Below are positions 51,340 to 63,948 of a stretch of DNA of 64,000 nt, piece after piece. Within the stretch, counting starts at the first letter, position 1; each line of letters starts with the position of its first letter. The stretch comes from Albibacterium bauzanense (GTDB lineage Bacteria; Bacteroidota; Bacteroidia; Sphingobacteriales; Sphingobacteriaceae). The stretch is taken from the NCBI RefSeq assembly GCF_004339765.1, contig NZ_SMGO01000002.1, forward strand, positions 1,090,001 through 1,154,000, in the 5' to 3' direction. The notes under the pieces are model-generated. The model was not told the DNA's origin, searched no databases, and saw nothing but the letters and a program-made list of their open reading frames with translations. Made by a program: the position numbers and the translations under genes.

Positions 51340-54300
51340 TTAGTGGTTCGTTTGGATTAAATTATCAGGATTAGCATTTTCAGGATCATCTGGATCAAGT
51401 GTCGGATTGATCCTGGTTTTGTTTTTCATAATTAGCGCATATAGGTGTGGCAAAATGAGCAGCACGGTTAGCGTAGATAATAGTAATCCACCGATTACCG
51501 CCTGACCAAGTGGAGCAACCTGTTCTCCGCCATCGCCCATCCCTAAAGACATGGGCACCATACCCGCAATCATCGCAAGTGTTGTCATAATGATCGGCCT
51601 TAACCTTGAAGAGGCAGCTAAAAGCGCAGATTGTCTTGCTCCCAGGCCATGCTTTAATCGGTTGACCTCGGCTTGGTTCACCATCAAAACCGCATTAGAG
51701 ACAGAAACTCCTACAGACATAATGATCCCCATATAACTCTGAAGATTCAGTGTACTGCCGCTGAAAATCAACATGATCAGACTTCCACCTATAACTGCCG
51801 GAACAACAGACAATATCAAACCTGAAACTGCGAAAGATTGATAATAGGCAGTCAACATTAAAAATATGACAACTATAGCCATCAGGAGTCCTGTTTGCAG
51901 ACCTGAAAGTGTGTCATCCAATAACTGCATCAGGCCCTCTGTAGATACAATGGTGCCGCGGGGCGGTTCTCCGGCATCTGCAATTGCCTTTTTTACCGCT
52001 TTCGAGGCCGTTCCAAGGTCTGAGTTATAGGTGTTGGCCAGTACACTCACGTACCGGTTTGGCCCCTGTCTGTTAACCTGTGCAGCCAGCTTTACCATGG
52101 TTAAGGTGGCTACATCCTCCAGTACAGGTCTTGAGGCTCCTGCTTTTAATGGCAACGACCTCAGCTTATCTAGAGAATACATGTCTGCCTCTGGAATCTG
52201 GACCTGTACCTGAAAGACCAGTCCGGATTTTGGATCAATCCAAAGATTTTTATTCGTAAACCTGGTAGATGAGGTGGCTATAGTTAGCGTTCGTGCAACA
52301 TCTTCCATCGTCAGTCCAAATTGTGCTGCGAGTTCCCTGTCCACGTTAATTTGGAGGCTTGGTGAATTGACCGGTTCTGCGATGCGAATATCCCGGAGCG
52401 AGGGAATCGTCCTCATTCCTTTCTCGATTTTTTTCGCATATTTTTCTGCCGCTTTCAACTGTCCGGCTGCTACCTTAATCTGAATAGGAGTCATGGCACC
52501 CTGGCTCATAATCTTTTCAACCAGCTCAATGGGCTCAAAATCTATCTTTACTTCAGGAATGCGTGCTAAAATTTCCTTTCGGATCGATTCCTTAAGTTCA
52601 GCAATAGAACCCGTAAACACATCCTGATCAATAGAAATCTGCAATACCGATTCATGTGTGCCACTGGTAAACAAAAAGATAGGATTGATCGCCGTTGCCG
52701 AGGGCTGTAACCCTACAAAAGCAGAGGTGATCTTTATGGCATTTGCCGGTAGCTTTCCTTTAACGATTTCCGTTACCTTTTTCAAGTAAGCTTCGGATTT
52801 TTCAAGCCTACTTCCTTCTGGCGCCACAATTCGCAGTTGTATATCTCCGCTATTGCTGGTTGGAAGTATATCTGTTCCTATGAAGCTCCCGCCTACACCA
52901 ATAAGCACTACTACAATGAGCACATAGATCAGGATTATCCTGCCCATTCTGTTTTGTCCATATCTGGTCAGGATTAGGTAGCGACGCTTGAACTTTTCAA
53001 ACCTGGTCAATTTCTTAGGCTGATTGTTAGGTTTGTGATGGATCAGCAATTCTGGTTTCATTAGCCAGTTTGCCAGTATCGGCACGAAGGTCTGTGAGGC
53101 AATGAATGAGGCAAACATCGCAAAAGCTACTGCCAACGAAAGCGGCATAAACATATCCTTGGGTATGCCACTCATCATAAAAGAGGGAATCAATACGGCC
53201 AGAATACAAAACAAGATCAGGATCTTTGGAATAGAGATTTCCAATAAGGCATCCAGGATTGCGCGCTGTTTGGGCTTTTTCATTTCAAAATGCTGATGGA
53301 TGTTCTCAATGGTAACAGTAGCCTCATCGACAAGAATTCCGATGGCCAGGGCAAGACCGCTAAGGGTCATTACGTTGATCGTTTGACCAAACAGATACAG
53401 CATGATTACAGCGGAAAGAATAGCAATTGGGATGGTTAGCACCACAATTAAAGAACCCCTGGCATCCCCCAGAAAGAGAAAAACCATGATCCCCGTCAGC
53501 ACCGCACCAAGTATGCCTTCGTGGACCAGGTTTTCCAAAGATCTTTCAATGTAGCCAGACTGGTCAAATACATATTTGATGTCTACATCTTCAGGCATTG
53601 CGGCCTTGAGTTTCGGGATCGCAGCCTTTAGATTTTCAACCACCTTTAGCGTGGACGCGTCCGCCTTCTTGATCACGGGAAGGTAAACAGAGCGCTTGCC
53701 ATTGATGATCGCATAGCCTGTGGTAGCATCTGCAGCATCTTCCACGGAGGCAATATCCCGAATAAATATCGTATTTCCTTCGGTCAGCTTGACCGGAATG
53801 TTTAGGAATTCCTCAGGATCTTTGGCAACCGAGTTTAACGGACTCATCAGATTTTGGTCGCCTATTCTAATGTTGCCAGCAGGCGAGGGAAAGTTATTTT
53901 TGGCGATTGCCATCGTAACTTCTTGCGCAGAAAGTCCATAGGACTGCATCAAAGAAGGATTCACTTTTACCACCATGGTGCGGATATTACCGCCAAATGG
54001 TGCCGGAGCGGTTACTCCCGGAATAGTGACGAACATGGGCCGGATCTTGGTGAGCGCCAGGGTCTGTAGTTCCGTGATCGAGCGCTTTGGACTTTCAAAT
54101 ACGAGCTGACCTATCGGCAACGAACTCCCATCAAAACGTACCACCTGTGGAGGTACTGCACCTGGCGGCAAAAACCCCATTGCTCTGGACACTTGTGTGG
54201 AGACTTCTGCGGATGCCTGGGCCATATCGGTACCGGGATAAAAGGTAAGCTTCATCAGCGTGAAGCCCTGAACGCTTTTAAAATCGATGTCCTTTACACC

Positions 54301-54525
54301 ACTGACGAAAATAAGTACTTTTTGAAATTCATTGGCCATAAAACCGTCCATATAGGCTGGGGTAAGCCCTCCATAAGGCATAGCTATATAAATCACCGGT
54401 AGTTCCACCTTGGGAAATATATCGACGTTGATGCTGCGAATGGCGGTAAAGGAAAAGTAAGCGATAGCAATGACCGCTACCATTATGCTGAGTGGCTTTT
54501 TTAAAGCAAACCTGATCATATTCAT
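51340..54525 (-). CDS. RND efflux pump inner-membrane permease (AcrB/HAE type)
   Basis: The 1061-residue protein has twelve membrane helices and two large periplasmic loops. The transmembrane proton-relay segment is LALAIGILVDEATVTIENIH, with Asp-Glu where AcrB has Asp-Asp. Other RND motifs are KVELPVIYIAMPYGGLTP near residue 40 and SRLRPIIMTTLAMIAGMVPM in the second half. It uses the proton gradient to drive export through TolC. It lies between TolC (5-bp gap) and the adaptor (6-bp gap), so the order TolC-pump-adaptor is complete. The substrate is unknown. Confidence 0.92.
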   Translation of the reverse strand: MNMIRFALKKPLSIMVAVIAIAYFSFTAIRSINVDIFPKVELPVIYIAMPYGGLTPAYMDGFMANEFQKVLIFVSGVKDIDFKSVQGFTLMKLTFYPGTDMAQASAEVSTQVSRAMGFLPPGAVPPQVVRFDGSSLPIGQLVFESPKRSITELQTLALTKIRPMFVTIPGVTAPAPFGGNIRTMVVKVNPSLMQSYGLSAQEVTMAIAKNNFPSPAGNIRIGDQNLMSPLNSVAKDPEEFLNIPVKLTEGNTIFIRDIASVEDAADATTGYAIINGKRSVYLPVIKKADASTLKVVENLKAAIPKLKAAMPEDVDIKYVFDQSGYIERSLENLVHEGILGAVLTGIMVFLFLGDARGSLIVVLTIPIAILSAVIMLYLFGQTINVMTLSGLALAIGILVDEATVTIENIHQHFEMKKPKQRAILDALLEISIPKILILFCILAVLIPSFMMSGIPKDMFMPLSLAVAFAMFASFIASQTFVPILANWLMKPELLIHHKPNNQPKKLTRFEKFKRRYLILTRYGQNRMGRIILIYVLIVVVLIGVGGSFIGTDILPTSNSGDIQLRIVAPEGSRLEKSEAYLKKVTEIVKGKLPANAIKITSAFVGLQPSATAINPIFLFTSGTHESVLQISIDQDVFTGSIAELKESIRKEILARIPEVKIDFEPIELVEKIMSQGAMTPIQIKVAAGQLKAAEKYAKKIEKGMRTIPSLRDIRIAEPVNSPSLQINVDRELAAQFGLTMEDVARTLTIATSSTRFTNKNLWIDPKSGLVFQVQVQIPEADMYSLDKLRSLPLKAGASRPVLEDVATLTMVKLAAQVNRQGPNRYVSVLANTYNSDLGTASKAVKKAIADAGEPPRGTIVSTEGLMQLLDDTLSGLQTGLLMAIVVIFLMLTAYYQSFAVSGLILSVVPAVIGGSLIMLIFSGSTLNLQSYMGIIMSVGVSVSNAVLMVNQAEVNRLKHGLGARQSALLAASSRLRPIIMTTLAMIAGMVPMSLGMGDGGEQVAPLGQAVIGGLLLSTLTVLLILPHLYALIMKNKTRINPTLDPDDPENANPDNLIQTNH

Positions 54526-54530
54526 AGCGC

Positions 54531-55907
54531 TTATTTAAAATAGTTAAGTAATAAAGAAAAATCTCCGCTTAGTTCTGCCTGCGAAATAACAAGGTTCCAA
54601 TAGTTTTGGACAGCTTTAAGGTTCTCACGTTCCGCTTCTTGGAGCAGCGCCTGTATCTGAAGCAACTCGGTCAGATTGATCAGACCACCTTCATACCGTG
54701 CAAGATAAAGTTCATAGGCATCTGAGGCTTTAGTAAAAGCTGTTTGGGTCTGGATCAGCAACTTTCGCTGTTGGGTTATCCTGGAAGCAACAGCAGATAG
54801 GGCGGTATTCATCTGGAGCCGTTGAAGGTCCAGCTTTGCCTGTACGCCCTGAACAGTTTTCTGGGCCCTCCGCCGTTCCAGCGAACTGGTATAAGCGTTA
54901 CCGATATTCCAGGTAATCCCAACGCCAACCAGGTAGTTGCCCGCCATATTCTGATAGCCCGAATTGATCCCACGATCAACAAAACCATTCTGCCCAATAC
55001 CACTTCCCCTGGATGAGAGTCCACCTAAAACCGATAGGGACGGCAATGCTTTTCGCGCAGTAACCTGTAGTTGTGCTCCTTCATAAGAAAGTTGCTTATC
55101 AATGACCTGTAGGTAGGGATGTGTAGAATTTATGGTGTCTAAACTAAGATCAGAAAGACCCGGATTCATCAAAGAAAGATCCGGAAAGGACAAGTTTTCC
55201 AATGGAACCACTTCTTTAAAACTAGCTTTGCCTGCCTGGTATCTTCCAAGGCTTTCGTAACGGGCGGCTAAAGCTTTAGCATATGCAGATGCAACGATCG
55301 ATGTGTCGGCACCGGGTTTTAATCCTGCGGATGATAGGCTTTTTGCGAGCTCAAGTACCTGATGGAGACGGTCGACGTTTTTTTCCGACAATTGGAGGCT
55401 CGATTTACTATAGGTTGTCTCTAAGTACAACCTGCTAATCTTAATTTGTAAAGACAATCTGGATGCGTCGTAACTACTTTTGGCACCTTGAACCTGATAT
55501 TCTGCGGATTCAATTGCCTTTCTTTGTTTTCCGAATTCAAAGAATTTCCAATCCATAAGTACCGATCCAAAAGCATTTCCGGTAGCTTGTGCAGCAGTTT
55601 CCGATCCAATGCTGTTGCCTGTTACGTTAAATACTCCGGGTACCGGGAAGAATGCACCACCGCTGCCCTGGTAGGTTCCATAGGACTGTTGCGCCTGGAA
55701 TTGTATCTGGGGAATTGATCTGCTTTGAACCTCTTTTTTTCGGAACTGAAATTCCTCTACGATAGTCCTGCGTTCACTAAGTCCGGGATAGCTTCGGTCT
55801 GCCTCTGTAAACGCTTCGCCAAGGGTCAATATATTTGTCTGCTGAGCTTTCGCGGCACTTGCAAATGCCATAATGATCAAACAGACCGTTTGAAGGGTAT
55901 ACTTCAT
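54531..55907 (-). CDS. TolC family outer-membrane efflux protein
   Basis: The 458-residue precursor has a signal peptide (MKYTLQTVCLIIMAFASAAK, cleavage near AKA-QQ). Two TolC/OEP repeats of long helices are visible, with LTLGEAFTEADRSYPGLSER at the start and LSLQIKISRLYLETTYSKSS and LQRLQMNTALSAVASRITQQ as helical blocks, and a Gly/Ser-rich strand region between them. It forms the outer-membrane channel of the pump encoded downstream. A 20-bp palindrome lies 42 bp upstream of its start at 55950 and may be an operator for the whole efflux operon. Confidence 0.9.
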   Translation of the reverse strand: MKYTLQTVCLIIMAFASAAKAQQTNILTLGEAFTEADRSYPGLSERRTIVEEFQFRKKEVQSRSIPQIQFQAQQSYGTYQGSGGAFFPVPGVFNVTGNSIGSETAAQATGNAFGSVLMDWKFFEFGKQRKAIESAEYQVQGAKSSYDASRLSLQIKISRLYLETTYSKSSLQLSEKNVDRLHQVLELAKSLSSAGLKPGADTSIVASAYAKALAARYESLGRYQAGKASFKEVVPLENLSFPDLSLMNPGLSDLSLDTINSTHPYLQVIDKQLSYEGAQLQVTARKALPSLSVLGGLSSRGSGIGQNGFVDRGINSGYQNMAGNYLVGVGITWNIGNAYTSSLERRRAQKTVQGVQAKLDLQRLQMNTALSAVASRITQQRKLLIQTQTAFTKASDAYELYLARYEGGLINLTELLQIQALLQEAERENLKAVQNYWNLVISQAELSGDFSLLLNYFK

Positions 55908-56456: not shown

Positions 56457-57884
56457 TTAAACGAGCTGATAAGAGCTTCCTTTCAGCGGCTCATAGGGAT
56501 TATGCTTTTGTAAAAATACTGTGATCGCTTCCACCACATCGACACCAAGGTCTGCCCGGTTACGTCCCAGATTTTCCGGCACGCCCTGGCTGGTGATAAA
56601 GGCCGCTTTATAGGTCTTGTCCTTTTCAACTGGTTCTTCTCCAATAAATAGCTGTTGTATACGATGCCCCTTGGGATTCTCGATCCTTAAATAAACACTG
56701 ATCCCGATAGCCCGTTTCACATAACCGCCCATCTGGAGCATGGGGTCTGCCGAAAATGTCCTTTCCAGGTTTTCTTCCAGCATTTTGATGATCTCCGATC
56801 CGGTCAGTTCCACTACAGACACCGGCGGGTTCATTGGCACCATATTATAGAGGTCCCATTTGGTCAGTTTACCCGGTGAAATCGGACTGCCATACCTCCA
56901 GCCATTTGAAAACGCCAGACTGGTTTTGGCGGCATCACAGACCGATCGAAGTAACAGGTCATCCATAGAGGAACCGAGTGTATCATACCTGTCTAAAAGA
57001 CAGGTTGTTTCACCGACAAATTCCTCCTTTAGCTGCTGATAAGGTCTCATGATCTCCTCGATCATCGCTTTGGTCTGCAAATCTTCTGCTACGGCATCGG
57101 TAACCGGAACCAGCTGATAGCTGTAGTCGCTGATCTTTCCTTTATCAATGAAAAGATCAAGTTTTCCAAGAAACGCACCATGGCATCCGCACTGGATGAT
57201 GATAGATTCTCCGACGGGCGTTGGTTCAAATAACCTGTTGTGGGTGTGGGCGCTCAGGCACACATCGATACCAGGAATTTCGCTGAGCATTTTGATATCC
57301 TGAGGATAGCCATTATGCGACAACAAAAACACCAGATCAGCACCCTCTTTCTTCACGGCCTGAATCGCACCAGGAAGTTCTTTCATCCCATCGGTTACAG
57401 TAATCCCATCACTGAATTCTTTGGGCATGGTCTTGTCAATAATGTTTGAACAAATCCCGATCACCCCAATCTTTAGTCCACCTGTTTCAATGATTATATA
57501 TGGATCGAGCAGTAGGCCAGCATCCTTTTTATAAACGTTGATGCCCAGAACCGGATAGCCCATCCCGGCCTGAAGTTTCAGCAATTGTTCAGCTCCATAG
57601 GCAAAGTCCCAATGCCCCACCATCGCACTGAATCCAAATGCTTTGAGCAGCGGCATTATGGCCTCACCCTTGCTCTGGATCAATGGGAGTGTACCATGAA
57701 AAGTATCCCCACCGTCAAAGACGAGCGTATGCGGATTTTCGGCTTTCATCTGTTTAACCAGCGTCATGATCCTGGCGTATCCGCCTGCAGTTCTGATCAG
57801 TTTCTCTTCCCCCTCAAAAAAAAGTTCCGGATGTGGCTCGAGGTATCCGTGTACATCGTTCAAATAACCTATTGATAGTTTCAT
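56457..57884 (-). CDS. SoxB-like metallophosphoesterase/5'-nucleotidase family protein, no signal peptide
   Basis: From the ATG at 57884 (an earlier ATG is 8 codons upstream) the protein has 475 residues. The metal motif is LNDVHGYLEPH, then FDGGDTFHGT, and the third motif is MVGHWDFAYG rather than GNHEFDYG. SoxB thiosulfohydrolases carry GHWEFTYG at this place. Further matches to SoxB are LLSHNGYPQDIKML, SAHTHNRLFEP, GCHGAFLGKLDL and MLQMGGYVKR. SoxB acts in the periplasm behind a signal peptide; none is seen here. It starts 10 bp after the exported DsrE gene. A sulfur-related hydrolase is likely, but a nucleotidase cannot be excluded. Confidence 0.7.
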   Translation of the reverse strand: MKLSIGYLNDVHGYLEPHPELFFEGEEKLIRTAGGYARIMTLVKQMKAENPHTLVFDGGDTFHGTLPLIQSKGEAIMPLLKAFGFSAMVGHWDFAYGAEQLLKLQAGMGYPVLGINVYKKDAGLLLDPYIIIETGGLKIGVIGICSNIIDKTMPKEFSDGITVTDGMKELPGAIQAVKKEGADLVFLLSHNGYPQDIKMLSEIPGIDVCLSAHTHNRLFEPTPVGESIIIQCGCHGAFLGKLDLFIDKGKISDYSYQLVPVTDAVAEDLQTKAMIEEIMRPYQQLKEEFVGETTCLLDRYDTLGSSMDDLLLRSVCDAAKTSLAFSNGWRYGSPISPGKLTKWDLYNMVPMNPPVSVVELTGSEIIKMLEENLERTFSADPMLQMGGYVKRAIGISVYLRIENPKGHRIQQLFIGEEPVEKDKTYKAAFITSQGVPENLGRNRADLGVDVVEAITVFLQKHNPYEPLKGSSYQLV

Positions 57885-57894
57885 AGGTTGCTGA

Positions 57895-58356
57895 TTAAGG
57901 ATGAACAATTACCCAGCCCTGTGCAGACCTAATAATAATCTCCCCATTTCCACTGGGCACATAACTGATAAAATCAAACAGGTCTTTCTTATCGATCTTT
58001 CGCTCCCTGAGCGTATTTTCACACTGGGCGAGAATTACACCCTTCTGGGAAAGGTCTTTTAGGGGCTCCTGGTAATTGCCTGTTTTGTAATAAGCTGCCA
58101 CCCCTTCACCGAATACGATGAGTTCAATTTCCAGCTTGCCTTTCAGGCGCGGATCATTCAGGGCATTGTTGATGTTCCTGATGATCCCAGTAATCTTTTT
58201 TTCTTCGCCGCTATTGAGCACATACAATGCCTTATAATGCTTTTTAGTTGCTTTTGCACCCTGAAAGCTGTCCAAGGGGGCAGCTGTTTGTGCGAAAAGG
58301 GGATTTGACACCCATAACAGGGCAATGCTGAATAAAAGGGCTTTAAAATATTTCAT
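57895..58356 (-). CDS. Exported DsrE family protein
   Basis: The 153-residue precursor has a signal peptide (hydrophobic ALLFSIALLWVSNPLFA, cleavage before QTAAP). The mature domain is DsrE/DsrF-like: HYKALYVLNSGEEKKITGII, IELIVFGEGVAAYY, GVILAQCENTLRERKIDKKD with the conserved Cys, and VPSGNGEIIIRSAQGW. DsrE proteins carry sulfur as a persulfide on such a Cys. Being exported, this one would act in the periplasm. It is the first gene of an operon with the SoxB-like gene and a hypothetical gene. The function is a family inference. Confidence 0.85.
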   Translation of the reverse strand: MKYFKALLFSIALLWVSNPLFAQTAAPLDSFQGAKATKKHYKALYVLNSGEEKKITGIIRNINNALNDPRLKGKLEIELIVFGEGVAAYYKTGNYQEPLKDLSQKGVILAQCENTLRERKIDKKDLFDFISYVPSGNGEIIIRSAQGWVIVHP

Positions 58357-58443: not shown

Positions 58444-59781
58444 TCAACTGAATTGTTTGATCGCCTCACCAATATCAAATACCGGCACTTTACCTTTCTT
58501 TTCAGCCTCGATCATCGAACTGGCTGCCGCACTCCGGTATCCACCTGCGCAATGTACAGCGATGGGCTTACCGTTCGGGATCTCATCAATCCGGTCTCTT
58601 AGCTCACCAAGCGGAATGGGAATGCTGTCCTTGAATATCTTGTGTTCCTTGACCTCGGATTCATTTCTGACATCGACAATGGTGTATTTCCCGGTATCAT
58701 TTCGGAAGTCCTGGAGATCCAGCGCTTCCATTTTGAGCTCGCCACCTCCGGCAAAATATGCGCCCTTGATCTGTCCCTCGTAACCGATGGAAGCAGTACG
58801 GGCAATCAATGCCTTTAGTGTCGCCTCATCCTTAGCCTTCAGGTAAAAGGGTTCTTCCGGGCTGATGATACTCCCCAGCCAGGTCTCAAACTTGGTACCT
58901 TCCATGATATTGACCGAATGCTGCTGGTGAGCGGCTTTGAACTCCGTGTCCTTCCTGCTGTCAATGATCCAGATATTCTCCTGCTCTTCGGGATTGCCTT
59001 CGCTTATCGCTACCTGAGCTACCGAAGGCTGGAAATCAGCCGCACCTTTTTTGTTCAACGCTACATCATAAGGAAAATAGGCTGGTATAAATGGCTGGTT
59101 GGAAGTCAGCTCTTTGACAAATTCCTGTTCGGTCATCTCTTTCAATGACCAGTTGGTCTTCTTTTCTTCACCCATAGTGCTGCTGTTGGCCTCGCTAAGC
59201 GCCTTGCCGCAAAGCGTTCCTGCCCCATGCGCTGGATAGAGCACCACATCATCGGACAGTTTCATCAGCTGATCCCGCAACGAATGGTACATCTGGGATG
59301 CCAGGTGCATCCGCTCAGCATTTACATCGCCACCGCTTTCACGCAGGTCAGGCCTGCCGCAGTCCCCGATAAACAGGGTATCTCCAGAAAACAGCGCCTT
59401 GTCAATGCCCTCATGTTCCAGCACGATGCAGATACTATCTGGCGAATGGCCCGGGGTATTCAGTGCCCTTAGCCTGATCTTTCCTATCTCCAGTACATCG
59501 CCCTCATCAAACGACAGGAACGGGTAATCTGGCCGGGTCAGCTTGCTCGCATAGATGGGCGAACTGGCCTGTTTGTGGATCTCAAGGTGCGAGCTCACAA
59601 AATCCGCATGCGGGTGGGTTTCTATTATGCCGATGATCTCCGCATTATTTTCAATGGCATAATCATAATAAGGCTTAGGATCACGCGCCGGATCAATCAG
59701 GATCATCTTACTTTCGCATTCACTTAAAATTGCGTAACTATAATGGGATAAAAATTTGTCTTCAAACTGCTTTATCTTCAT
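58444..59781 (-). CDS. Persulfide dioxygenase-rhodanese fusion (MBL-fold hydrolase)
   Basis: The 445-residue protein has an N-terminal metallo-beta-lactamase domain of the ETHE1/persulfide dioxygenase type (ETHPHADFVSSHLEIH, NTPGHSPDSICIVLE, FSGDTLFIGDCGRPDL, LYPAHGAGTLCG). Two rhodanese-like domains follow. The first (about 250-345) lacks an active-site Cys; the second (about 355-445) has VHCAGGYRSAAAS with the catalytic Cys. It should oxidise glutathione- or other persulfides to sulfite and pass sulfur to an acceptor, detoxifying sulfide. It lies 15 bp after the DUF2892 gene. A Crp-type site stands before that operon. Confidence 0.92.
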   Translation of the reverse strand: MKIKQFEDKFLSHYSYAILSECESKMILIDPARDPKPYYDYAIENNAEIIGIIETHPHADFVSSHLEIHKQASSPIYASKLTRPDYPFLSFDEGDVLEIGKIRLRALNTPGHSPDSICIVLEHEGIDKALFSGDTLFIGDCGRPDLRESGGDVNAERMHLASQMYHSLRDQLMKLSDDVVLYPAHGAGTLCGKALSEANSSTMGEEKKTNWSLKEMTEQEFVKELTSNQPFIPAYFPYDVALNKKGAADFQPSVAQVAISEGNPEEQENIWIIDSRKDTEFKAAHQQHSVNIMEGTKFETWLGSIISPEEPFYLKAKDEATLKALIARTASIGYEGQIKGAYFAGGGELKMEALDLQDFRNDTGKYTIVDVRNESEVKEHKIFKDSIPIPLGELRDRIDEIPNGKPIAVHCAGGYRSAAASSMIEAEKKGKVPVFDIGEAIKQFS

Positions 59782-59796
59782 AATCTCTGAAATATT

Positions 59797-60009
59797 TTAT
59801 TTTTTATTTTTTACTCCACAGGTATTGATCCCTAATAACACATAGAGCGGACAAAAGCTCATAAAACTTGTCAGGATAAAAATCCCGGAAATCACCAGTA
59901 GGATAATGGCCGTTGTGCCGGAAATAACGTGTGTAAAATAAAGTACGATGATTGCCAGGGCAATCACTATTCTTATTGACCGGTCGAGGATGCCCATGTT
60001 GTTTTTCAT
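59797..60009 (-). CDS. DUF2892 (YgaP-like) membrane protein
   Basis: From ATG 60009 the protein has 70 residues (an earlier in-frame ATG at 60036 would lengthen it). The opening MKNNMGILDRSIRIVIALAI, with the DR-x-x-R motif, and the following two hydrophobic segments ending FMSFCPLYVLLGINTC are the DUF2892 signature. In YgaP this domain anchors a rhodanese. Here it is a separate gene 15 bp before the persulfide dioxygenase-rhodanese gene and may anchor it to the membrane. A conserved Cys pair (SFC and NTC) is present. A promoter with a Crp-like site is directly upstream. Confidence 0.88.
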   Translation of the reverse strand: MKNNMGILDRSIRIVIALAIIVLYFTHVISGTTAIILLVISGIFILTSFMSFCPLYVLLGINTCGVKNKK

Positions 60010-60033: not shown

Positions 60034-60077
60034 CAAATTTACTACATCAAGGATTGATCGTTGGTGACTTTGGTCAC
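60034..60077 (-). promoter_or_regulatory. Crp/Fnr-type site and -7 box before DUF2892-dioxygenase operon
   Basis: On the minus strand GTGACCAAAGTCAC (60064-60077) is followed by exactly 22 bp and then TAAATTTG (60034-60041), an exact TAnnTTTG box. The ATG at 60009 is 24 bp after the box. The same layout occurs at 61938 and 63266. The palindrome would sit near -41, where Crp-type activators bind. Confidence 0.75.
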
Positions 60078-60092
60078 ACAGCCATTTACCAG

Positions 60093-60469
60093 CTAAAAAG
60101 ACCTGCGGTAATTCGGATCATATTTTATAGGTGATAAGAAATGAAGCAGTAATGTCCTGGCGTACCTAAAATTGAAAGTAAAAAGCAATATTACCGGAGA
60201 TACTGTCAAGCCGATTATACTCCACTGCTGGCTGCTGTCAAATACCATAAAGGCTATGACCCAGCTGTAACGAGTTCAGCGATGATCAGCACATAGCTAA
60301 CATACATTGCCGCCCAGAAAAAGCCTGGCTCGATCTCGTATTTTAGGTTGCAATTGGAACAATGGCTGTGCATCCTTGAATACTTATAGCTGAACATAGA
60401 AGTTTCATAGATGTCTCCCCGACGACACCTGGGGCATTTGTGATTGATTACGGCCAGTAACTTGCTCAT
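60093..60469 (-). pseudogene. DUF983 family protein gene with frameshift
   Basis: The first frame starts at ATG 60469: NHKCPRCRRGDIYETSMFSY, then HCSNCNLKYEIEPGFFWAAM and YVSYVLIIAELVTAGS, then a stop at 60254. The C-terminal part of DUF983 continues in another frame: VIAFMVFDSSQQWSIIGLTV, then RYARTLLLHFLSPIKYDP, ending at 60093. The break is in a GGG run near 60257, where one lost G would explain it. It may be a true mutation or a read error. DUF983 proteins are zinc-ribbon membrane proteins of unknown role. It is last in the YeeE-YeeE-rhodanese operon, 2 bp after the rhodanese gene. Confidence 0.8.
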
Positions 60470-60471
60470 AT

Positions 60472-60939
60472 TTATTTTGTCGATGACTTAAGCGGATACC
60501 CCTTGCTCACCCAGTCGGTCCTTAAGTTGGTCGGCAAATTCAAAAGCATTGCTTTTGAAAATTTTTGCGCTTTCAATAAGGTAAATGCCGGCCGGATATT
60601 GGGACAGCGATCAAATGGGCAGCAGCCGCAATACACAACGATCAGTTCACTTTTAGGCAGGGTTTTAACGACCTGGCTAAACTTGGCAAGGTTTTCTTTT
60701 TCACTTGCCGCTCCCATGTTGATTGCTCCGGGGATATCGTCCACTACTCCAATATTATAGATACGAACTTTCTTACCTTTTTTAATCATTGAGGCGAGCT
60801 GGGCAGGTTGCATCAACTGGGCACTCGTCCAGGGGTTGAATTGTAAAGTTGGGGCAGGACTTACCTGCGCCCAGCTGCTCAGTCCGGTGGATATCAAGAG
60901 GGCGAAGGCGGCAAATGTTCTAGTTAGGATCTTTCTCAT
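60472..60939 (-). CDS. Exported rhodanese-like protein with Cys-rich active loop
   Basis: The 155-residue precursor has a signal peptide (MRKILTRTFAAFALLISTGL, then SSWAQ). The rhodanese fold is seen from LASMIKKGKKVRIYNIGVVD, IPGAINMGAASEKE and LIVVYCGCCPFDRCPNIRPA. The active loop holds three close cysteines plus a fourth (YCGCCPFDRCPN) instead of the single catalytic Cys. It lies 9 bp after the second YeeE gene and probably hands sulfur between periplasmic partners such as the exported DsrE. A role with persulfides or copper-like metals is inference. Confidence 0.82.
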   Translation of the reverse strand: MRKILTRTFAAFALLISTGLSSWAQVSPAPTLQFNPWTSAQLMQPAQLASMIKKGKKVRIYNIGVVDDIPGAINMGAASEKENLAKFSQVVKTLPKSELIVVYCGCCPFDRCPNIRPAFTLLKAQKFSKAMLLNLPTNLRTDWVSKGYPLKSSTK

Positions 60940-60948
60940 GGGTCTTTA

Positions 60949-61362
60949 TCAATGTGGTAATTTATTTTTAATCAGTCCGTACAGGTAAGTACCTGTAACA
61001 GCACCGAAAGCTACAATAACCATTCCGAGATAACCATAGCCAATGTTGACGAAAATAGGCCCTGGACATGCACCTGTAAGCGCCCAGCCCAAACCAAAAA
61101 TTGTCCCGCCGATCAGATACTTCTTCCAGGCCATATCCTTATCCTGAAATTTGATCACCTCGCCGCTAAGATCCTTTAAATGGAATTTCTTAATCAGGTA
61201 AACCGCGATCACGCCCAGGGTGACGGCCGTACCAATGATCCCGAACATATGGAAGGATTGGAAGCGGAACATCTCCTGTATCCTGAACCAGGAAATGGCC
61301 TCGGACTTTGCCATCACAATACCGAACAAAATTCCGGTGAGTATATATTTTAAAAACTTCAT
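60949..61362 (-). CDS. YeeE/YedE family protein, half-size (DUF6691-like)
   Basis: From ATG 61362 the protein has 137 residues; an upstream open frame overlaps the previous gene and has no family match. Four hydrophobic segments and the motif GLGWALTGACPGPIFVNIG identify it as the second half of a YeeE/YedE transporter. Full-length YeeE proteins import thiosulfate. Here each half is a separate gene, 2 bp apart, so a heterodimer is likely. It lies between the first YeeE half and the exported rhodanese. The Cys in ACPGP is the conserved thiosulfate-relay residue. Confidence 0.88.
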   Translation of the reverse strand: MKFLKYILTGILFGIVMAKSEAISWFRIQEMFRFQSFHMFGIIGTAVTLGVIAVYLIKKFHLKDLSGEVIKFQDKDMAWKKYLIGGTIFGLGWALTGACPGPIFVNIGYGYLGMVIVAFGAVTGTYLYGLIKNKLPH

Positions 61363-61364
61363 GG

Positions 61365-61925
61365 CTAAAAAATTAAAGGAAATAAAAGATGGGTCATGGC
61401 AAGTCCGCCGATAAAAAAACCGATTACCGCAATCAGCGAGGGCACCTGGAGGTTGGAAAGGCCACTGATCGCATGGCCGGATGTGCATCCGCCAGCATAT
61501 CGTGATCCGAAACCCACCATCACGCCTCCAAACAGCAACAAAAACACGACTTTTGGAGAAGTAAGTGAACTAATTGAAAAAAGCTTTTCCGGGTTCAATC
61601 CGCCATCAAAAGCAATACCTAGCCCAGCAAGATCGCTGATGGTTGAAGCTGAAAGCTGTAGCGGCTGATCACTTTTAAGTAAAGTGGCGGATATAAATCC
61701 ACCTATAACAGCGCCAACTAAAAAAAGCAGGTTCCATCGCTGGGCTTTCCAGTCGAAAACGAAAAATTTCACTTTTTTGCCTGCGCCGGCCATACTGCAT
61801 ATGGTACGCAGGTTTGACGAGAATCCGAACGATTTCCCGAAATACAGCAGAACCACCATAATAAGGGCGATAATTGCGCCCGAGGTATACCAGGGCCAAG
61901 GTTGTTTAATGAGTTCTAACATCAT
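61365..61925 (-). CDS. YeeE/YedE family protein, half-size
   Basis: From ATG 61925 the protein has 187 residues (ATGs at 61940 and 61922 are alternatives). It has five hydrophobic segments and the motif GSRYAGGCTSGHAISG, the first conserved Cys motif of thiosulfate transporters. Together with the next gene (half carrying GACPGP) it makes a complete YeeE channel. A Crp-like site stands upstream at 61968. The pair should carry thiosulfate or a related sulfur anion across the inner membrane. Direction of transport and substrate are inferred from the family. Confidence 0.88.
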   Translation of the reverse strand: MMLELIKQPWPWYTSGAIIALIMVVLLYFGKSFGFSSNLRTICSMAGAGKKVKFFVFDWKAQRWNLLFLVGAVIGGFISATLLKSDQPLQLSASTISDLAGLGIAFDGGLNPEKLFSISSLTSPKVVFLLLFGGVMVGFGSRYAGGCTSGHAISGLSNLQVPSLIAVIGFFIGGLAMTHLLFPLIF

Positions 61926-61937
61926 TTTTAATTTATA

Positions 61938-61981
61938 CAAAAATATGCATCCAGATCCGCCTTCTTTGTGACTAAAGTCAC
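61938..61981 (-). promoter_or_regulatory. Crp/Fnr-type site and -7 box before YeeE-YeeE-rhodanese-DUF983 operon
   Basis: On the minus strand GTGACTTTAGTCAC (61968-61981) is followed by exactly 22 bp and then TATTTTTG (61938-61945), an exact TAnnTTTG box. The ATG at 61925 is 12 bp after the box. The palindrome directly adjoins the stop codon of the methyltransferase gene. The same layout is at 60034 and 63266. Confidence 0.78.
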
Positions 61982-62440
61982 CTACAAAAAAGGAAAGAAT
62001 CTTCCCGTTCTGCTTTTATAAGCCGGATATTCAGCAAATTTTTCCAGTAAAAGCCCTTCCTCATAACGGGACTTGAAATAAAATAGCACGACTAACAACA
62101 CGGAAACAACCAGTCTGGATAAACTGTCTGAGAACAGGGAATAACAAAAAATAAAGACAATGATACCTGTGTAGATGGGATGCCGCATGTACCTATACAG
62201 ACCTGTTTGTATCAGGGTGCCATTTTTGGTTGGGGACGGGAACGGCGTAAGGTTACTTTTGAGTTGCAGGATGGCCACCAAGGATATGAGTACCCCCGAA
62301 ATTGCGGGAATCAGCGCAAGTTTGCGATAAGACTCGGCAATGCCGATCTTAACCAGCGGCGGCATTAAAATAAAAGCTACCAGTAAACAGAGCTGGGTGG
62401 CTACATATATCAGGTCTTTTCCTCTGCTGTGTTCAAACAT
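61982..62440 (-). CDS. Isoprenylcysteine carboxyl methyltransferase-like membrane protein
   Basis: The 152-residue protein has four or five hydrophobic segments and the ICMT/PEMT-type motif YRYMRHPIYTGIIVF, followed by SRYEEGLLLEKFAEYPAYKS, which holds the conserved Glu pair used for S-adenosylmethionine and substrate binding. It follows the TauE gene by 11 bp on the same transcript. Such methyltransferases commonly accompany sulfur and metal loci in Bacteroidota, but their substrate is not known; methylation of a thiol is one possibility (inference). Confidence 0.82.
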   Translation of the reverse strand: MFEHSRGKDLIYVATQLCLLVAFILMPPLVKIGIAESYRKLALIPAISGVLISLVAILQLKSNLTPFPSPTKNGTLIQTGLYRYMRHPIYTGIIVFIFCYSLFSDSLSRLVVSVLLVVLFYFKSRYEEGLLLEKFAEYPAYKSRTGRFFPFL

Positions 62441-62451
62441 TTATCAGTCAG

Positions 62452-63249
62452 CTATTTAAGAAATAATTCTTTGGTAAGAATATACAAAGCCATCAGCAGC
62501 ACAAACCATCCGAATCCTTTTTTAAGCCTGGCTCCAGGTATTTTTTTGTTGATCTGTCCTCCAATAATTATCCCTGCAATTGCGATACCAGTAATTTTTA
62601 AAAGGAAAAACCAGTTGATGGCAAAATGCCCCAGATCACCGGTAAAACCAATCAATGAATTCAGCGCAATAATCAAAAGCGAAGTGCCTACCGCCTCCTT
62701 CATGGGCAAGCCAACCAGCAGCACCAGGGTTGGGATCAGCAGAAATCCGCCGCCCGCACCCAATAGTCCGGTGGCGATTCCAATTGCCACCCCATAAAAC
62801 AAAAGGGTGAACAGACCAGCGGGTTTAGCTGGGACATGTTCCTTTCCCAACGAATCGTTGTCCCTGATCATTGCAACAGCTGCTGCCAGCATCAGGATGG
62901 CAAAAAGCACCATAGTCATGATGTTTTCGGTAACCTCAAAACTGCCGATGTAAAATAGGTGTTTTGGAATTGACGGTATGAGGAATTTTCTGGTTAAAAA
63001 GACGGTACTTATTGACGCGGCGCCGAACATCAAAGCTGTTTTTACTTTCACAAAACCATTACTAAAATTCTGGAAGGCTCCGACTAGACTCGTTGAACCT
63101 ACTATAAAAAGGGAATAGGAAGTAGCCAGTAAAGGGCTGACGCCGAAAAGATACACCATCACCGGGACGGTCAAGATTGATCCCCCTCCGCCGATAAGGC
63201 CGAGGGAAACACCGATTAACGCACTGGCAAGGTATGCAAAGATTTCCAT
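62452..63249 (-). CDS. TauE/SafE family sulfite exporter
   Basis: The 265-residue protein has about eight hydrophobic segments with both TauE repeats: SLGLIGGGGSILTVPVMVYL and ATGLLGAGGGFLLIPTLVLL. In sulfur loci such as the cst operon, TauE removes sulfite made by the persulfide dioxygenase, and the dioxygenase gene is in this cluster. It heads a two-gene transcript with the ICMT-like gene and has a Crp-type promoter upstream. It differs from the TauE copy at 29978. Sulfite export is a family and context inference. Confidence 0.85.
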   Translation of the reverse strand: MEIFAYLASALIGVSLGLIGGGGSILTVPVMVYLFGVSPLLATSYSLFIVGSTSLVGAFQNFSNGFVKVKTALMFGAASISTVFLTRKFLIPSIPKHLFYIGSFEVTENIMTMVLFAILMLAAAVAMIRDNDSLGKEHVPAKPAGLFTLLFYGVAIGIATGLLGAGGGFLLIPTLVLLVGLPMKEAVGTSLLIIALNSLIGFTGDLGHFAINWFFLLKITGIAIAGIIIGGQINKKIPGARLKKGFGWFVLLMALYILTKELFLK

Positions 63250-63265
63250 GGTGTGATTTCTCAGA

Positions 63266-63309
63266 CAAAGATGCAGTCATTAAAGCCATGGAATGGTGAC
63301 CTAAGTCAC
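63266..63309 (-). promoter_or_regulatory. Crp/Fnr-type site and -7 box before the TauE gene
   Basis: On the minus strand GTGACTTAGGTCAC (63296-63309) is followed by exactly 22 bp and then CATCTTTG (63266-63273), one change from TAnnTTTG. The ATG at 63249 is 16 bp after the box. The same layout occurs at 60034 and 61938. It lies between the TauE gene and the Crp/Fnr gene. Confidence 0.75.
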
Positions 63310-63315
63310 ACAGGG

Positions 63316-63948
63316 CTATTTTAGATACTCGATAAAATTGCGGTGAAGCACCACCTCGCCCCGCTGTTCCATTTTTTTGAGCAACCTTGAAATCACCTCC
63401 CTGGAAGAATTCAGGTCGGTGGCAATTTCATTGTGTGTAATGACGAGTTCCCTTGTCCCTAGATCCCGATACTGTTTATCCAGATAGAATTCCAGGCGTT
63501 CATCCATACCCTTGAATGCGATGTGGTCGATCACCACCAGTAGTTCCTCAAAGCGCATCCGGTAGGTTTCCATCACAAAATAGTACCAGGTCTTGTACTC
63601 CTTCATCAGCGTGTCCATCAGCGCAATGGGAATCATCAGCACCTTTGTGTCGTCCACCGCCATGGCCATCACCTGGCTTGTTTCCTGCTTTGTCGCACAG
63701 ATCATCGACAGCGCACAGGCATTGCCCGGCTGAAGGTAATACATAAAAAATTCTTTACCTTCTTCCCCTTCCCTGTAAAGTTTTACCATCCCCTCAACGA
63801 TCAGCACAGTTGAACGCATGTTTTGTCCGGTTTGCATAAGCATGTCCCCAGCATTAAACTTTTTAATGACGGCATTTTCAGCCAGCACCTTTTTAAGTTC
63901 TGGTTCAAAATTCGGGAAGAGGGTTTGGAGGAAATCGTTTGGAGTCAT
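63316..63948 (-). CDS. Crp/Fnr family transcriptional regulator of the sulfur locus
   Basis: The 210-residue protein has a cyclic-nucleotide-type sensing domain (1-120), a dimerisation helix (KTWYYFVMETYRMRFEELLV) and a C-terminal helix-turn-helix (about 165-205). The recognition helix NSSREVISRLLKKME carries R-E-x-x-S-R, matching Arg180, Glu181 and Arg185 of Crp. Only two cysteines are present, Cys78 and Cys84, in NACALSMIC of the sensing domain, with no Fe-S cluster motif at the N terminus. Its gene lies next to three GTGAC-N4-GTCAC promoters, so it probably activates the sulfur genes. The signal is unknown. Confidence 0.88.
   Translation of the reverse strand: MTPNDFLQTLFPNFEPELKKVLAENAVIKKFNAGDMLMQTGQNMRSTVLIVEGMVKLYREGEEGKEFFMYYLQPGNACALSMICATKQETSQVMAMAVDDTKVLMIPIALMDTLMKEYKTWYYFVMETYRMRFEELLVVIDHIAFKGMDERLEFYLDKQYRDLGTRELVITHNEIATDLNSSREVISRLLKKMEQRGEVVLHRNFIEYLK

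Follow-up and report, generated by a model that had tools for sequence, protein, structure and literature searches.

GTGAC-N4-GTCAC sites at sulfur genes of Albibacterium bauzanense as probable class II operators of the neighboring Crp/Fnr-type protein

We analyzed a 64,000-nucleotide stretch of the Albibacterium bauzanense genome (NCBI RefSeq assembly GCF_004339765.1, contig NZ_SMGO01000002.1, positions 1,090,001 to 1,154,000; hereafter the window, whose numbering is used below), in which three copies of a 14-bp palindrome, GTGAC-N4-GTCAC, precede three transcription units of a sulfur gene cluster. We hold with high confidence that these palindromes are operators of the adjacent Crp/Fnr-type protein, which would activate the sulfur genes from class II promoters. 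An earlier note on this DNA had proposed a compact regulon of the neighboring Crp/Fnr gene, and four lines of evidence now support that proposal: (i) genome-wide exclusivity of the site, (ii) co-occurrence of the site with regulator orthologues, (iii) an unbiased dyad scan, and (iv) covariation of recognition helix and site. At the level of genome comparison, these analyses show the site, its spacing, the gene set behind it, its tie to the regulator, and the base paired with residue 184 of that protein. All three palindromes were found exactly where the earlier note had placed them. Their GTGAC and GTCAC half-sites are perfect in three of three when read on the minus strand, and the box coordinates bear out the claimed 22 bp between each palindrome and a -7 box. 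The consensus of the Bacteroidota -7 element is TAnnTTTG. The sites and boxes are as follows.

60064 to 60077, no strand assigned: palindromic site 1, GTGACCAAAGTCAC (minus strand), from genome and family pattern searches
60034 to 60041, minus strand: -7 box TAAATTTG, 22 bp from site 1; YgaP-like start codon 24 bases beyond the box
61968 to 61981, no strand assigned: palindromic site 2, GTGACTTTAGTCAC (minus strand), from genome and family pattern searches
61938 to 61945, minus strand: -7 box TATTTTTG, 22 bp from site 2; YeeE start codon 12 bases beyond the box
63296 to 63309, no strand assigned: palindromic site 3, GTGACTTAGGTCAC (minus strand), from genome and family pattern searches
63266 to 63273, minus strand: -7 box CATCTTTG, 22 bp from site 3; TauE start codon 16 bases beyond the box

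Exactly three GTGACN4GTCAC sites are present in the whole genome (3,081,443 bases, 6 contigs), all in one 3.3-kb segment of the window. The genome-wide scan proposed in the earlier note thus found no perfect copy elsewhere, and hence no random scatter. The reversed control of the pattern has 2 sites, so the bare count of three per genome is ordinary. Their clustering is not: 3.3 kb holds all three, each at a promoter and each with the same spacing. In 100 dinucleotide shuffles of the window, the mean count of the site was 0.00 and the largest 0. Weak sites are indistinguishable from chance in this genome, because the 44-bp pattern of site, gap, and box (GTGACN4GTCAC-N22-NANNTTTG) with up to three mismatches matched 36 times, and its reversed control 58 times.

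We searched 201 genomes of the family for the 44-bp pattern, alongside the reversed control. There were 59 matches in 33 of the 201 genomes and 0 for the control. The surroundings of all 59 matches were retrieved, and 58 of them, all but that in genome G170, contain a homologue of the regulator or of the sulfur proteins of the window; in five of these 58, the sole homologue is a YgaP-like gene (L059, L064, L066, and L068) or a rhodanese-bearing reductase-like protein (L069). A regulator orthologue, defined by at least 54 percent identity, occurs in 37 of the 201 genomes. Both motif and orthologue are found in 30 genomes, the regulator only in 7, the motif only in 3, and neither in 161 (Fisher p 1e-25, relatedness not corrected); the orthologue is thus present in 30 of 33 motif genomes versus 7 of 168 others. 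Phylum-wide, the pattern is rarer, occurring in 17 of 395 genomes, 13 of them (A. bauzanense included) of the same class, with 2 control matches. When the gap before TANNTTTG was left free between 7 and 37 bp in the 201 family genomes, we obtained 24 matches (control, 5): 15 at gap 22, 5 at 23, 1 at 21, and 3 at 9, 11, and 16. The gap is thus 21-23 in 21 of 24, and the gap-21 and gap-23 cases include G056, G092, G082, and G063.

A second sample consisted of 80 loci picked by regulator homology alone (the best 80 of 581, 57-80 percent identity), from Pedobacter, Mucilaginibacter, Chitinophaga, Dyadobacter, Flavobacterium, and others, some organisms overlapping the 201-genome set. We counted every 5-bp dyad, 1024 arms by 11 spacers (0-10), over these loci. 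GTGAC-N4-GTCAC is the commonest (66 sites in 43 loci), and A/T runs rank behind it. Where the box NANNTTTG stands within 60 bases of the dyad, the gap is 22 in 56 of 71 occurrences. With at most one mismatch and a gap of 21-23, there are 113 sites (62 perfect), whereas the reversed control has 0 in these loci. Sphingobacteriaceae fit best, with a perfect site in 22 of 24 loci. By chance, a genome this large would be expected to hold two or three such dyads (control, 2), but all three here lie in 3.3 kb with one fixed gap, the site is conserved, and the reversed control of the full pattern is 0 both in the family and in the 80 loci. We consider it negligibly probable that the palindromes arose as a chance repeat or form a structural element without a regulatory role; chance was rejected on the controls in the own genome, the family, and the 80 loci.

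The gene beside site 3 encodes the candidate regulator.

63316 to 63948, minus strand: Crp/Fnr-type regulator, 210 aa (PF00027 1.3e-12, PF13545 6.1e-07, PF00325 4.8e-05)
63397 to 63402, minus strand: codons of R183-E184, equivalent in the alignment to R180-E181 of E. coli CRP; residue 184, E or V, tracks the third base of the site

PF00027 and PF13545 are above cut-off, and the 50 matches listed in a fold search of the PDB are all members of the Crp/Fnr superfamily. The recognition helix is SSREVISRLLKK, and R183, E184, and R188 align with R180, E181, and R185 of E. coli CRP. As described in part of PMC11253593, the CRP core GTGA-N6-TCAC is read by R-E-x-x-x-R, and E181 and R185 contact the G4:C4 pair of the half-site T1G2T3G4A5. 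This pair corresponds to the third base of GTGAC. At the sequence level, then, R183, E184, and R188 together with the GTGAC-N4-GTCAC sites conform to the base contacts of the CRP type.

Paralogues of about 40 percent identity, found at YeeE-Crp-TauE-dioxygenase loci of other genomes, have V at position 184; for the weaker regulator matches in the family (36-42 percent), 29 of 37 loci were retrieved. NtcA has a helix of the R-V type (RVTVTRLL, from the alignment) and the site GTA-N8-TAC, and because NtcA pairs these two, we expected GTAAC-N4-GTTAC for the R-V paralogues. This expectation preceded the scan but was put in writing only after it. The scan of R-V paralogue loci found GTAAC-N4-GTTAC, again with a gap of 22. 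The R-V paralogues thus resemble NtcA at the helix, and their site fits its GTA-N8-TAC; they differ in that most of those seen here are at sulfur loci, whereas NtcA responds to 2-oxoglutarate and controls nitrogen genes. In A. bauzanense itself GTAAC-N4-GTTAC occurs 4 times versus 16 for the control, so it is meaningless there.

We quantified this covariation in 135 non-identical homologues (113 R-E and 22 R-V; 18 identical regulators of 153 were removed), taking sites within 5 kb that had a box at gap 21-23. For R-E, 59 genes have GTGAC dyads and 1 the A/T type; for R-V, 1 has GTGAC and 15 the A/T type (Fisher p 9e-14). Both exceptions come from a single locus, L129, which has one gene of each kind and the matching site beside each. 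In a count by nearest site, with hybrid sites excluded and 60 of 133 genes without a classifiable nearest site omitted, 58 E genes have GTGAC, 15 V genes at sulfur loci have GT(A/T)AC, and 0 of 73 are contrary. On a tree, from which two short homologues of the 135 were removed, four of four independent pairs agree on residue 184 versus the third base. Because the base in the site changes with the recognition-helix residue, which is the decisive point, the neighboring Crp/Fnr protein is very probably the regulator of the sites. The base preference that goes with residue 184 is strong, not absolute.

We note that the sole searched genome of the same genus, G017 (L088), is without the window's regulator and site, and has an R-V paralogue, GTAAC-type sites, and a similar gene set. 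Within a genus, then, one regulator type may take the place of the other.

Several observations weigh against this assignment. The four independent pairs reach only a sign test p of 0.125. Hybrid sites with one altered arm number 23 at R-E genes and one at R-V genes, and the Flavobacterium sites displayed are mostly of this type; Flavobacteriaceae also fit worst among the 80 loci, with a perfect site in 0 of 16 and a one-mismatch site in 7 of 16. For 19 of the 113 R-E homologues, the surrounding 5 kb hold no site even when one mismatch is allowed, some of these stretches ending at a contig end. Three motif genomes lack the orthologue (G005, G117, and G170): in G117 a paralogue of 41 percent identity lies next to the site, in G005 there are genes for TauE and a dioxygenase, and the match in G170, which has no sulfur gene, is probably chance. 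Conversely, 7 of the 37 regulator genomes lack the exact pattern. In four of them (G098, G086, G065, and G164), a site near the regulator deviates by a gap of 23 or by one mismatch; the other three (G075, G078, and G011) have no site in the retrieved stretch. Finally, a Crp-type protein encoded at C3:306353, with the helix SRETLSR, has identical residues at the three base-contact positions.

This last protein is one of seven with a PF00027 domain in the genome, and it raises the question of whether a different Crp/Fnr protein binds the sites. Another of them is a receiver-domain-Crp fusion on C1; a GTGAC-N4-GTCAT site, its gap likewise 22 bp, is about 3 kb away. Such a swap of regulators is, in our judgment, very unlikely. 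The other six proteins are distant from the window's regulator, one alone matching it at E 0.01 with 23 percent identity, and the REVISR helix is present in the window's regulator only; moreover, the site tracks the helix of the neighboring gene across lineages and for the two paralogues within locus L129.

Two places in the genome deserve mention in their own right. A three-mismatch copy of the pattern at C3:306050-306093 lies close after the C3:306353 gene; it may be due to chance, such copies being no commoner than the control. The GTGAC-N4-GTCAT site, at C1:1047361-1047404 (L093:5392), has a single mismatch, the 22-bp gap, and a TACTTTTG box, and lies before a multicopper oxidase, perhaps a Cu nitrite reductase; the fusion, with the helix NETVSR, is at C1:1050125 (L093:7802-8863). 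We did not count this site as a fourth target, in view of the multicopper oxidase, the cytochrome-like and NnrS-like ORFs (names from sequence reading), and the different helix of the fusion. Class II spacing may serve several Crp-type regulators of the phylum, with different half-sites.

At class II promoters, the activator site stands at a fixed distance from a -10 type box, replaces the -35 element, and is centered near -41.5. Because the 14-bp site ends 22 bp before the box, its center would fall near -41, the class II position, and the distance is fixed, as at such promoters (gap 22 in 56 of 71, gap 21-23 in 21 of 24). We infer the following mode of action. A dimer of the Crp/Fnr protein (63316-63948) would bind GTGAC-N4-GTCAC via R183, E184, and R188, centered about 41 bp before the transcription start and over the place of the -33 element. 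The bound dimer would contact RNA polymerase and activate the promoters as class II activators do. Its targets would be the set handling sulfide-derived sulfur, namely TauE export, YeeE/YedE transport, the persulfide dioxygenase-rhodanese, DsrE, and the SoxB-like protein. As at E. coli class II promoters activated by CRP/FNR, the palindrome stands at a fixed distance from a -10 type box, where it would take the place of the -35 element, and it has the GTGA-N6-TCAC core that CRP reads; the differences here are the Bacteroidota -7 box, the extended GTGAC arm, the sequence of the protein, which is not that of a cAMP receptor, and the sulfur targets.

The same protein on the same sites might instead repress, blocking RNA polymerase until a sulfur signal releases it, and a site so close to a promoter is able to block it. 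CstR and BigR, sensors of such signals, are repressors according to the available parts of PMC5480029 and PMC7315123. We regard repression as quite unlikely, since the enforced 22-bp gap (56 of 71) is a demand of activation, whereas a repressor tolerates other positions. Among 92 non-redundant sites (13 near-duplicates of 105 removed), TTTG at N17-21 before the box occurs in 0 and TTG in 2; this is a weak point against repression, as the palindrome itself excludes TTTG at three of the five offsets. Activation thus remains the likely mode, mainly because the gap is fixed.

The sulfur gene cluster follows the regulator on the minus strand. Its order is Crp/Fnr; site 3, TauE, ICMT-like; site 2, two YeeE/YedE halves, a 155-aa protein, a DUF983-like ORF; and site 1, YgaP-like, a metallo-beta-lactamase-rhodanese fusion, DsrE-like, SoxB-like.

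62452 to 63249, minus strand: TauE/SafE family exporter, unit 1 gene 1 (PF01925 3.8e-37)
61982 to 62440, minus strand: ICMT/PEMT-like membrane methyltransferase, unit 1 gene 2 (PF04191 5.6e-11, PF04140 2.5e-09)
61365 to 61925, minus strand: YeeE/YedE half 1 (Sulf_transp), unit 2 gene 1 (PF04143 2.4e-18)
60949 to 61362, minus strand: YeeE/YedE half 2 (Sulf_transp / DUF6691; PF04143 5.1e-14, PF20398 4e-09)
60472 to 60939, minus strand: 155-aa protein, apparently with a signal peptide; some related loci hold homologues
60254 to 60469, minus strand: 71-aa DUF983-like open reading frame; homologues at related loci
59797 to 60009, minus strand: YgaP-like membrane protein (DUF2892 in the earlier note), unit 3 gene 1 (PF11127 2.8e-21)
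58444 to 59781, minus strand: metallo-beta-lactamase and rhodanese fusion, 445 aa (PF00753 1.6e-12, PF00581 1.4e-12; NF040641 9.7e-14, below cut-off)
57895 to 58356, minus strand: DsrE-like protein (PF02635 9.4e-07)
56457 to 57881, minus strand: SoxB-like metallophosphatase (PF00149, PF02872; TIGR04486 1.3e-91, below cut-off)

From its domains, the 445-aa fusion is a probable persulfide dioxygenase-sulfurtransferase. The 155-aa protein, called a rhodanese in the earlier note, had no Pfam or NCBIfam match at E 0.001. The ORF at 60254-60469, which we take to belong to the DUF983 family, has 71 aa where its homologues at related loci have more than 120, and a 51-aa open frame comes after it at 60093-60248; short and trailed by this frame, the gene may have decayed. 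Beyond the sulfur operon, at 51340-55907, the window has genes for an RND pump and a TolC-like protein. TolC-like ORFs (a label from sequence reading) also stand behind a perfect site at L165:3955-5301, L187:1760-3106, and L196:2373-3731, and RND homologues near sulfur loci of other genomes (L051, L088, and L089). An RND exporter may be part of the sulfur system.

We also tallied the downstream ORF, chosen by a fixed rule, for the 105 distinct 44-bp sites of the retrieved loci. It is TauE at 32, a dioxygenase- or rhodanese-domain protein at 26, YgaP-like at 7, YeeE at 6, DUF983-like at 2, a regulator at 1, and others at 31. Pfam searches on nine downstream or neighboring proteins identified rhodanese in 2, OsmC in 2, AhpC/TSA in 2, and thioredoxin in 1, with no match for 2. 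About 6 of the 105 sites (L040, L117, L130, L132, L133, and L135) have no visible sulfur or thiol link, as judged by reading. At L069:7748-9406 (G083:C1), a perfect site with gap 22 precedes an apparent CoA-disulfide-reductase-rhodanese fusion (labeled from sequence reading), on the same contig as the regulator's cluster but distant from it. Repeatedly, the first gene behind the site encodes a small membrane protein (66-87 aa) that carries a Cys motif, ACCGTSAC / SACGIGGC (L036:13301-13513, L059:10805-11005, L038:17123-17377, and relatives); two that were tested had no Pfam match.

This gene set resembles that of known persulfide-controlled operons. The S. aureus cst operon (tauE, cstA, cstB, and sqr, with the regulator CstR) likewise has a TauE exporter, a sulfurtransferase, and a persulfide dioxygenase-sulfurtransferase, as described in part of PMC5480029. 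Its regulator is a CsoR-like dithiol repressor, whereas here a Crp/Fnr-type probable activator would serve three separate promoters; the cst operon also has SQR, and no SQR gene turned up here, where no search aimed at SQR was made. In A. baumannii, the yeeE-yedE-pdo2 (BigR) and FisR operons similarly place YeeE/YedE and a persulfide dioxygenase under persulfide-sensing regulators, as part of PMC7315123 reports, but these are a repressor and a sigma-54 activator, and protein family, promoter class, and operator are different here.

What signal would the regulator sense? We rejected membership in the families of CstR (CsoR-like), BigR/SqrR (ArsR type), and FisR (sigma-54 activator), as the protein has Crp/Fnr domains only. 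FNR holds its 4Fe-4S cluster with four cysteine ligands; the regulator has only two cysteines in its 210 residues, C78 and C84, and is thus not of the FNR type. At the six cAMP-contact positions of E. coli CRP (71, 72, 82, 83, 127, and 128, as given in part of PMC6603298), it has A, L, T, S, L, and L. S83 alone is kept, and with five of six replaced we rejected a cAMP receptor (CRP proper). Its best sequence match (3e-22), also first in the fold search, is PDB 3dv8, a Crp/Fnr regulator of Eubacterium rectale that shares the R-E helix and has cysteines at both positions; identity is 28 percent, and its title names no function.

63715 to 63717, minus strand: codon of C78, which falls opposite I70 of E. 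coli CRP in the alignment, next to G71-E72 in the cAMP pocket

C78 is present in 135 of 135 homologues and C84 in 121; of the 14 without C84, 12 are within 6 kb of a sulfur-gene homologue. BigR has a reactive cysteine pair, C34/C100 (part of PMC7315123). A comparable C78-C84 dithiol switch is weakened here and would not be the general mechanism, because those 12 of 14 paralogues keep C78 without C84 and are still at sulfur loci. In the AlphaFold model (mean pLDDT 81.9, pTM 0.58), pLDDT is below 50 at residues 81-89, and the cysteine region is unreliable. Sulfane-sulfur sensing at the pocket near C78 is plausible, and a one-cysteine or ligand mechanism may operate there; the signal would be sulfane sulfur or a related sulfur species.

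Another signal, such as oxygen, nitric oxide, a general thiol oxidant, or an organic ligand, with the sulfur genes as one output of the same regulator and sites, is a real possibility, if somewhat short of even. Thioredoxin, 1-Cys peroxiredoxin, and OsmC genes also stand behind the site in other families, C84 is not retained in all sulfur-locus paralogues, and other Crp/Fnr family members sense redox state or gases (parts of PMC12937710 and PMC12750200). Against this, all three perfect sites in the own genome and most sites in the family precede sulfur genes. The cysteine count, too low for an FNR-type cluster, and the replaced cAMP-contact residues also speak against it.

The earlier note had known of no description of the site in this context. 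Likewise, searches aimed at the site or at a Crp/Fnr protein controlling these genes showed no description among the open-access papers listed. The GTGAC half-site is not new as such, GTGA-N6-TCAC being the CRP core (part of PMC11253593). The persulfide-responsive regulators named in the available part of PMC7315123 are CstR, SqrR/BigR, and FisR, none of them Crp/Fnr. Taken on comparative grounds, this is a real, conserved site-regulator pair, very probably a Crp/Fnr regulon with class II geometry that controls sulfur detoxification. We suggest, tentatively, that the regulator could represent a class of sulfane-sulfur sensor that is new. In this Crp/Fnr activator, the cyclic-nucleotide pocket would have become a persulfide-reactive site around the invariant C78; the protein would control class II promoters across several Bacteroidota families, and sister lineages would have switched from GTGAC to GTAAC by a single E-to-V change with the sulfur gene set retained. 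In the Bacteroidota, a phylum whose promoter code is its own, a probable activator so conserved and with so sharp a site would serve as a model of class II activation and of how sulfide detoxification is controlled. The change between E and V at the classical specificity residue is a natural experiment, in which the operator of a homologue may be predicted from one residue.

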